Shown: positions 16,634 through 21,149 of the stretch, piece by piece
How positions within the stretch are numbered: position 1 is the stretch's first letter
How the letters are laid out: every line of letters begins with the position of its first letter
Position numbers and translations under genes: made by a program
Assembly: GCA_014191755.1 (NCBI GenBank)
Contig: BJHE01000015.1
Coordinates: 1 to 33,058, forward strand
From: Cyanobium sp.
GTDB taxonomy: Bacteria > Cyanobacteriota > Cyanobacteriia > PCC-6307 > Cyanobiaceae
Length of the DNA stretch: 33,058 nt
Direction: 5' to 3'
Notes under the pieces: generated by a model
Told to the model about the DNA's origin: nothing
The model's input: the letters and a program-made list of their open reading frames with translations, nothing else
Database searches by the model: none

Positions 16634-17563
16634 ATGGCCCTCCTGTCCGGTGACATCACATCCGGAAACATCACAATGGTGAGCCCGTTTCCACTGCCGC
16701 CGGCCGCCCCGATGTCGATGGCCACCGCCACGGGTGATGGCGCCGAAGGCTTGATCGATGGCCCGCCGCCGGCAATCGCCTTGGTCGATTCCCATTGCCA
16801 CATCGTCTTCCGCAATTTCGACGCGGACCTCGACGAAGTGGCGGCCCGCTGGCGTGAGGCCGGTGTCAGCGCCTTGGTGCACGCCTGTGTGGAGCCCGCC
16901 GAAATCCCGGCCATCCGCGCCCTGGCCGACCGTTTTCCGGAACTCAGCTACGCGGTGGGGGTCCATCCATTGGATACCCAGCACTGGCAGGAGCACACCG
17001 CCCGCGACCTACGAATCGCCGCCCAAGCCGACAGCCGGGTGGTGGCGATCGGAGAACTCGGGCTGGACCTCTACCGGGAGACGAACCTGGAGCGCCAGTT
17101 GGCCGTGCTGGAGCCCCAGCTAGATCTGGCTGTGGAGCTGGATCTGCCGGTGATCATCCATTGCCGCGACGCCGCCGCGGCGATGCTGGAGCTGTTCGTC
17201 TCTCGGGCACGCCAAGGTGGCATCCCACGCGGGGTGATGCACTGCTGGGGGGGCACACCTGCGGAAATGGAGGCTTTCCTGGCCCACGGCCTGTACATCA
17301 GTTTCAGCGGCACCGTCACCTTCCCAAAGGCCGAAGCCACCCACCAATGCGCCCGCCAAGTGCCGCCCCACCGCTATCTGGTGGAGACCGACTGCCCCTT
17401 CCTGGCCCCGGTGCCTCGACGAGGCAAGCGCAACGAACCGGCCTTCGTCGCGACGGTGGCTGCTCGGGTGGCGGAGCTGCGGGGCGAGACCCTCGAGCAA
17501 GTTGCTTCTACCAGCACCGAGAATGCGGCACGACTTTTCAACCTGTCGCTTCATAGTGTATGA
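16634..17563 (+). CDS. tatD: TatD family metal-dependent hydrolase
   Basis: TatD proteins are TIM-barrel metal enzymes with 3'-5' DNase activity. The metal ligands are seen in DSHCH (residues 52-56 from this start), AIGELGLDLYRE, VIIHCRDAAAAML, GVMHCWGG and LVETDCPFLAPVPRRGKRNEP. The C-terminal ASTSTENAARLFNL is also typical. About 50 residues precede DSHCH, longer than usual; ATGs at 16676, 16712 and 16718 are alternatives, and the last two would give a more normal N-terminus. It is 56 bases from rpsT. The end of the gene overlaps a plausible -10 box for rpoB. Confidence 0.93.
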   Translation: MALLSGDITSGNITMVSPFPLPPAAPMSMATATGDGAEGLIDGPPPAIALVDSHCHIVFRNFDADLDEVAARWREAGVSALVHACVEPAEIPAIRALADRFPELSYAVGVHPLDTQHWQEHTARDLRIAAQADSRVVAIGELGLDLYRETNLERQLAVLEPQLDLAVELDLPVIIHCRDAAAAMLELFVSRARQGGIPRGVMHCWGGTPAEMEAFLAHGLYISFSGTVTFPKAEATHQCARQVPPHRYLVETDCPFLAPVPRRGKRNEPAFVATVAARVAELRGETLEQVASTSTENAARLFNLSLHSV

Positions 17564-17564
17564 T
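17535..17564 (+). promoter_or_regulatory. candidate sigma-70 type promoter for the rpoB operon
   Basis: TATGAT at 17559-17564 overlaps the tatD stop codon and resembles a -10 box, with TG directly in front. TTTTCA at 17535-17540 could serve as a weak -35 with an 18-base spacer. If used, it would give a leader of about 285 bases before the rpoB ATG. Confidence 0.4.
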
Positions 17565-17712
17565 GTTCCATTGGTCTGGTAGCGGAAGCGCTTCTTTGTC
17601 CACCCTTCGGCTCACCCCCCGGATCACCACAGCGCCTGGGTTCTCCACCAGGCCCCAGGCGGCATCCATCCCCTCCCCGGCCTTGAGGGAGGCACGGTAG
17701 GGGGCTTCGCCT

Positions 17713-17746
17713 GAACAGCCGTTCCTGGTTGCCGGAACGGCTGTTC
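17713..17746 (+). promoter_or_regulatory. strong stem-loop 1 in the rpoB leader
   Basis: A perfect 13-bp inverted repeat, GAACAGCCGTTCC (17713-17725) and GGAACGGCTGTTC (17734-17746), with an 8-base loop. No T run follows, so it does not look like a standard intrinsic terminator. An RNase processing site, attenuator or protein-binding hairpin are options. Confidence 0.75.
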
Positions 17747-17778
17747 GTGTCGACACCGCCGACCCACCGCCGTGCCCG

Positions 17779-17807
17779 CCGGTTGTTGACCCCACGTCAA
17801 CCACCGG
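17779..17807 (+). promoter_or_regulatory. stem-loop 2 in the rpoB leader
   Basis: CCGGTTGTTGAC (17779-17790) pairs with GTCAACCACCGG (17796-17807) in 11 of 12 positions, with a 5-base loop. It ends 51 bases before the rpoB ATG, close enough to affect ribosome access or early elongation. Confidence 0.65.
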
Positions 17808-17858
17808 TTCCATCTCCAGACCGATTCCCTTATCCATCCGTTCCTGCAGGTTCACCGC

Positions 17859-21149
<3,291 letters not shown>

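Follow-up and report, generated by a model that had tools for sequence, protein, structure and literature searches.

A putative structured leader of the rpoB-rpoC1-rpoC2 mRNA in Cyanobium and related picocyanobacteria

Folded leaders can place the machinery of gene expression under autogenous control, as in the leaders of ribosomal-protein operons (for example, the L10 leader). Lacto-rpoB RNA, whose function is unknown, is a conserved RNA structure that is tied to bacterial rpoB, like the leader that we describe here. In E. coli, an attenuator and a processing site in rplJL-rpoBC were reportedly described by Barry in 1980 and by Steward and Linn in 1992. There, too, structured RNA stands before rpoB, and it is said to lower and tune the synthesis of polymerase subunits. 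However, the E. coli element is part of a ribosomal-protein operon, where it separates rplL from rpoB, and it includes a terminator, whereas the leader in the window (the 33,058-nucleotide stretch of Cyanobium sp. DNA that we analyzed) is apparently a promoter-proximal 5' leader that follows tatD and has no terminator-like site. Lacto-rpoB also differs from the present leader: the passages that list it in Weinberg et al. 2010 (PMC2864571) give Lactobacillales only, and its covariance model (RF01709) had no match in the window stretch or in 11 further loci. More broadly, ten leader loci had no match to Rfam release 15 at the gathering score, and the sub-threshold matches in the window and four loci were chance-like. 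No family of ribosomal-protein leaders in Rfam matched the leaders scanned.

A screen of 20 years ago very probably picked up this element already, in two marine strains: Axmann et al. 2005 (PMC1242208) give a cluster 245, "rpoBC operon leader", from Prochlorococcus MIT 9313 and Synechococcus WH 8102, with no member from MED4 or SS120. It was a structured candidate (alignment length 259; Z of -3.7 forward and -4.53 reverse), but it appears as a table row with "-" in the Exp column, and the authors did not take it further, since they considered a novel ncRNA less likely there. Cluster 245 and the present leader belong to the same gene and are similar in length (the comparison covers gene and alignment length). 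Unlike our results, the passages on cluster 245 contain no structure, no long-range helix of the kind that we call P1, no covariation, and no freshwater members. As far as we searched the literature, the structure, P1, the covariation, the rpoB-only distribution, the freshwater members, and the gain and loss are new here. Among the papers that our searches listed, we also recognized none on the control of RNA polymerase levels in cyanobacteria, judging mostly from the listings.

The window carries tatD (TIGR00010; 16634-17563, + strand), rpoB (TIGR02013; 17859-21149, + strand), rpoC1, and rpoC2, in that order. The gap between tatD and rpoB (17564-17858, 295 nt) holds two inverted repeats and one TATGAT promoter-like site, and it would be the leader of rpoB. 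A sequence-only reading had described a perfect 13-bp repeat and an 11-of-12 repeat downstream of a promoter-like TATGAT, with no T run after either stem. All of this was borne out: the repeats are at 17713-17725/17734-17746 (loop of 8) and 17779-17790/17796-17807 (loop of 5), the TATGAT is upstream of both at 17559-17564, and there are 0 terminator-like sites in 17400-17960. With a folding energy of -122.6 kcal/mol, the 295-nt leader is more stable than shuffled sequences (mean of -104.1; z = -3.6; 0 of 200 shuffles reach it). As a separate observation, 25-26 nt from within rpoB (17939-17964) recur at a second place, at 96-100% identity, in 19 genomes of the genus.

To compare leaders, we collected rpoB loci from the genus (40 of 42 genomes with a match to the query) and from the family (140 of 151 genomes with RpoB). 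From the genomes tabulated, we fetched the loci of a subset, which gave a set of 121 tatD-rpoB gaps, each from a different genome, for comparison (for L038, the start codon is an extrapolated one); tatD precedes rpoB in all 121. Among the relatives that carry a name in the genome collection are Cyanobium, Synechococcus, and Prochlorococcus. From these names, and from the size and composition of the compared genomes, we assigned the family name Cyanobiaceae and the labels "marine" and "high-light Prochlorococcus". We used four alignments. A1 covers the long central hairpin (P3) alone in 33 leaders, A2 covers 22 hand-chosen marine-type leaders, and A4 covers the window group (17 of 20 prepared leaders, with L071, L081, and L082 left out); each of these was aligned by MAFFT from sequence only. 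Each row of A1 was cut around a hairpin, which was located by folding in 28 leaders and by a motif in 5; L039, from an initial 34, was left out. A structure model (R1) was built from the 22 leaders of A2 and run on 67 chosen sources; A3 consists of its 57 matches at E ≤ 0.001 and, having been fitted to R1, is biased in favor of that model. A second model (R2) was built from the window group.

The promoter-like site is TTTTCA, 18 nt, TATGAT (17535-17564, + strand). It lies in the 3' end of tatD, with its -10 (17559-17564) overlapping the stop codon, and it is the sole sigma-70-like site in 17400-17960 (9 of 12 positions match; 0.1 such sites expected). The -10 region is conserved: TGTA..AT is invariant in all 22 leaders of A2, and GTA.GAT in all 17 of A4. 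In each of the 108 leaders (of 121) that match the motif, the gap from the -10 hexamer to ATTG is 5 nt, and yet these 5 nt, between the -10 and the 5' strand of P1, have 47 different sequences. A gap of constant length and variable sequence looks like a promoter discriminator, which would put the start of the RNA within about one base of P1. From the -10 spacing, we infer a transcription start at about 17570 (17570-17571, + strand).

Three blocks recur among the leaders listed: a 5' block that immediately follows the -10 and consists of ATTGGCCTGG and a hairpin, a long hairpin in mid-leader, and a block just before the ATG. In the window, P1 is a predicted long-range helix whose 5' strand (ATTGGTCTGG; 17570-17579, + strand), at the predicted 5' end of the RNA, pairs at 10 of 10 positions with CCAGACCGAT (17816-17825, + strand), which lies 33 nt before the start codon and just above a comparatively open ribosome site. 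P2 is the hairpin AGCG-GAAG-CGCT (17581-17592, + strand), and P3 is the long central hairpin (17701-17761, + strand), with the perfect 13-bp repeat as its core. The 11-of-12 repeat forms a small hairpin (17779-17807, + strand) that is lineage-specific and outside the conserved family: among the 17 leaders of A4, only the window and its 95%-identical sister (L003) have it. So the earlier picture of two stem-loops in series does not hold for the family; besides the rarity of the second stem, it missed P1 and P2. Just before the ATG is a pyrimidine-rich, putative ribosome-binding block (CCGTTCCTGCAGGTTCACCGC; 17838-17858, + strand) with a Shine-Dalgarno-like AGG at 17848-17850, and most of its columns are invariant across all 17 leaders of A4. 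Across the 121 leaders, the pyrimidine fraction of the ribosome region is 0.74, versus 0.56, and the last 28 nt before the ATG are predicted to be more open than the upstream leader in 118.

Two other features of these leaders are worth recording. In the marine-type leaders, the linker between P2 and P3 (GAAGCGTCCATT..CTTCCGGTGCATTGTCGACGTCAGCTGTTCTGACC; columns 55-115 of A2) is highly conserved, more so than the stem of P3, and it is a candidate site for a protein or ligand. In one leader (L045), the 3' part between P3 and rpoB (approximately 1356-1500) carries a run of five small hairpin units, most of which are CTGGCTTCGGCCAAAAAA. These have a terminator-like look, and we did not notice such a run in the other leaders that we read.

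Compensatory changes point to a kept structure. The stem of P3 differs widely in sequence between relatives (for example, GGCAGCCATTCCC...GGGAATGGCTGC in L094 and GGCAGCAGCTCC...GGGAGCTGCTGC in L098). A1 has 30 double-changed cells, against 14 in shuffles (0 of 500 shuffles reach 30), and these are spread over 7 of the 16 pairs of P3; its score is 0.318, versus at most 0.153 if the partners are slid. The number of double-changed pairs in A1 (7) is not above shuffles (104 of 500 reach it), and neither are the pair types (60 of 500). Given A2, RNAalifold found P1, P2, a small hairpin in the linker, and P3 without prompting, and 12 of the 24 pairs are double-changed, although none of these is in P1 across the 22 leaders.

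In A3, P1 is again part of the consensus fold, 89.4% of cells are paired, and 18 of 24 pairs are double-changed, with some in each of the six helices (and in all 4 pairs of P2). The score is 0.402, versus at most 0.116 for slid partners, and 0 of 500 shuffles reach any of the five measures. Counted on this model-fitted alignment, there are 199 GU or UG cells and just 21 AC or CA cells, which indicates an RNA on the sense strand of rpoB. For A4, we named P1, P2, and P3 by hand. There, 86.3% of cells are paired, 6 of 28 pairs are double-changed (12 of 500 shuffles reach that), and the score is 0.191, versus 0.101 for slid partners; the pair types are not above shuffles (141 of 500 reach them). 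P1 is the weak part of A4 (73.9% paired), and P2 is 91.2% paired with no double changes.

Pairing is thus kept by compensatory change in A1, A3, and A4, as judged by tree-independent controls (shuffles and slid partners). The sequence-only reading had proposed that compensatory changes in both of its stems would support a functional RNA; P3 shows such changes, and the small hairpin is confined to the window and L003 among the leaders of A4. Its suggestion of a functional RNA outside the known classes is supported by the covariation and by the lack of Rfam matches at thresholds. Considered one by one, the leaders are less striking. In the window's leader (L002), the strongest single hairpin is reached by 1 of 60 shuffles, and across the 121 leaders, the best hairpin is reached by 0 of 60 shuffles in 55 cases, by 3 or fewer in 79, and by more in 42, so the hairpin of an individual leader is not always exceptional. 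The support for the structure is its recurrence and covariation, not the stability of any single leader.

We analyzed P1 separately, in the 108 of 121 leaders whose 5' block could be placed by motif, with the partner segment taken from 20-52 nt before the ATG. P1 has at least 6 contiguous pairs in 78 of the 108 leaders, versus 20.0% of shuffles, and at least 7 in 65, versus 7.5%. Compensated variants include GTCTTGGG/CCCAAGAT (L114), TTGTCTTGGG/CCCAAGATAA (L093), and GGTCTGG/CCAGACC. The window's P1 is perfect; most relatives have GGCCTGG instead (73 of 111), and its partner is often similar to CCAGGCC or CCAGGTC. Counting against P1, it is broken in the closest relative (L003), which has 5 contiguous pairs and no matching change on the 5' side. 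When we permuted P1 across the whole group, the leaders' own value was -12.50, compared to a permuted mean of -12.02 (sd 0.15) and a best of -12.54 in 2000 permutations. This test is weak because most of the 5' blocks are identical.

How widespread is the leader? In 61 family genomes, R1 found 42 matches, one per genome, and all 42 are at most 50 nt upstream of rpoB (compared by eye with the table of RpoB matches). There was no match to R1 in the other 19 genomes, including the window's own; some of these lack a match for RpoB, and others have diverged leaders. R1 sees the window's leader weakly (E = 0.076), it misses 10 of the 34 family genomes with a completeness of 90% or more and a contamination of 5% or less, and at E ≤ 0.001 it finds 32 of the 56 family sources that were not used to train it. 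R2 finds the tatD-rpoB gap in 37 of 42 genomes of the genus (its training sequences match by construction), as well as 15 of 18 marine-type loci that were not used in its making (E ≤ 0.001). Besides the 37 leaders, R2 gave 17 other rows in the genus. Three of these are P3 on the opposite strand, and of the remaining 14, we read 4 as sequence and none resembles a full leader.

In a collection of named genomes, 13 of 30 loci (from 80) match R1 or R2 at E ≤ 0.01 (L188-L200). These come from uncultured cyanobacteria, Cyanobium, Synechococcus, and three Prochlorococcus single cells. Neither model matches the remaining 17 loci at that threshold, even though rpoB is present in all 30; these 17 include Prochlorococcus MIT 9401, MIT 9302, and HNLC1, as well as Planktothrix, Synechocystis, Microcoleus, Tychonema, and Aphanocapsa feldmannii. 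Similarly, in 13 family leaders that we take to be from high-light Prochlorococcus, the fold is absent, and we found weak AT-rich hairpins only and no ATTGGCCTGG. It appears that the fold was lost in this branch. The same leaders (L169-L179, L119, and L120) share a conserved AT-rich stretch similar to GGAATTACTGGAAATTTTTCTTAATTTTTAG, without the fold.

Outside the family, we examined 25 loci of other cyanobacteria (from 60 genomes of the class, five of which proved to be family members). tatD is also in the locus in these 25. R1 had no matches at E ≤ 1, and R2 had one, with E = 0.15. Instead, GAGGAG lies within 18 nt of the start codon in 22 of the 25 outside loci, versus 0 of 121 family leaders, and 16 of the 25 have a TTGAC-N16..20-TAnnnT promoter-like site within the final 110 nt, versus 0 of 121. 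Because the outside loci lack matches at E ≤ 0.1 and most have a close promoter-like site or GAGGAG, the long leader looks like an innovation of the family, one that accompanied the loss of a nearby promoter and of a strong Shine-Dalgarno site. In many of the outside loci (L136-L160), the TTGAC-like, TAnnnT-like, and near-start GAGGAG elements form a compact promoter-leader that is conserved as a unit.

Overall, the leader looks like a folded RNA whose shape is kept across many picocyanobacteria while the sequence of its stem is hardly kept. Our preferred reading, with a probability of roughly 0.55, is that it forms a structured 5' UTR of the rpoB-rpoC1-rpoC2 mRNA, that is, a single-copy, cis-acting RNA that tunes the operon's output post-transcriptionally. 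The 5' end of the RNA, starting at about 17570, would be locked into P1 by pairing with the segment that lies 33 nt upstream of the start codon, and the domain that P1 closes would contain P2 and P3. This closed domain would act once transcription has started and would set how much the RNA polymerase operon yields, via the lifetime of the mRNA and the access of ribosomes: the sealed 5' end would resist decay that depends on the 5' end, and opening or binding of P1 or P3 would alter access. The likeliest input would be feedback from RNA polymerase or from the growth state. This is the least certain step, and it is suggested by the gene served and by analogy to other bacteria.

The best rival is that P3 is a processing site for RNase III, which would separate the rpoB mRNA from the 5' domain or from tatD read-through, without any regulation. 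P3-like hairpins are long, nearly perfect double strands (median of 22 bp, and at least 16 bp in 113 of 121 leaders; the hairpins were picked by folding, and we judged 6 of the 34 listed not to be the homologous one), a nuclease that recognizes double strands would allow the stem's sequence to vary while the pairing is kept, and the E. coli rplJL-rpoBC RNA offers an analogy, as it is reported to be both attenuated and processed (Barry 1980, cited in PMC1242208 and PMC5371410). But such a site would leave P1, P2, and the linker hairpin unexplained, and they are also kept (A3). We consider this unlikely as a full account, although processing could be one step of the mechanism that we prefer.

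Alternatively, the folded domain might be a passive stabilizer whose only roles are to shield a long mRNA and to prevent closure of the ribosome site, without any input signal. The E. coli ompA leader is an example of a passive 5' stabilizer, and the rpoB leader would work in a similar way: P1 is at the predicted 5' terminus, and the ribosome region is comparatively open and pyrimidine-rich. We doubt this explanation, since the size of the leader and its multi-helix architecture arguably exceed what protection would need, and since the conserved linker in A2 suggests a binding site.

Three ways of coupling the leader to termination or initiation are each disfavored because T runs are rare, there is no consistent open reading frame, and pairing of the arm is at the level of chance. 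In a transcription attenuator, P3 or an alternative hairpin would stop transcription, perhaps by a non-canonical cyanobacterial termination, unless prevented. Table 1 of Axmann et al. 2005 (PMC1242208) draws the parallel to the E. coli attenuator before rpoBC. We think attenuation quite improbable here, and in its simple form, as the sequence-only reading had entertained, it is not supported: besides the lack of terminator-like sites in 17400-17960, the 9 nt after the stem include at least 6 T in just 2 of 121 leaders and at least 5 T in 8 of 121. (For this and for the arm test below, we picked the most stable hairpin 55-150 nt before the ATG, which we judged not to be homologous to P3 in 6 of the 34 leaders listed.)

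A leader-peptide attenuator was rejected: closed ATG reading frames of at least 8 codons occur in 41 of the 112 leaders with a -10 match (GTG and TTG starts were not counted), but their positions vary in the rows listed, L002-L005 have none, and no ATG frame is consistent. Even less probable than attenuation is a ribosome-site switch, in which the 3' arm of P3 (GGAACGG) would pair with CCGTTCC of the ribosome block. The window does have this pairing (14 nt, 86%; -17.6 kcal/mol), but across 121 leaders the duplexes of arm and tail are no better than with shuffled tails (-12.9 versus -13.3). Finally, chance structure in GC-rich DNA, or a conserved DNA element such as a protein-binding palindrome, is barely credible: 42 of 121 leaders do not stand out clearly from shuffles, but the pair-keeping double changes, the GU bias on one strand, and the single copy beside rpoB largely contradict it.

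We also considered pairing in trans. In three genomes of the genus (G004, G011, and G015), a second site is perfectly complementary to the ribosome block (17838-17856) over 19 nt. In G004 this site is in the gene for ribosomal protein L28 (PF00830), and the sequence in G015 looks alike. In the window's own genome, the sole second site has 2 mismatches, so we set aside pairing with the L28 mRNA; the complement is probably a codon-driven coincidence.

Returning to the structured 5' UTR, a bolder and rather doubtful extension is that this is a new class of autoregulatory RNA, which picocyanobacteria acquired as the nearby strong promoter and the Shine-Dalgarno site of rpoB were lost. RNA polymerase (or a subunit or an elongation factor) would bind P3 or the linker, open or close P1, and so meter its own synthesis, and the RNA would later have been lost in the streamlined high-light Prochlorococcus.

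More broadly, from the sequence comparisons, the leader probably helps picocyanobacteria to set the amount of RNA polymerase. A leader of rpoB that is single-copy, widely kept, and covarying is a defined and testable element, and the most abundant photosynthetic bacteria belong to the family that carries it. Natural contrasts are available, since the leader is present in one family and apparently lost in one branch, and the structure model allows the leader family to be added to RNA databases and to be tested in culturable Cyanobium or Synechococcus.
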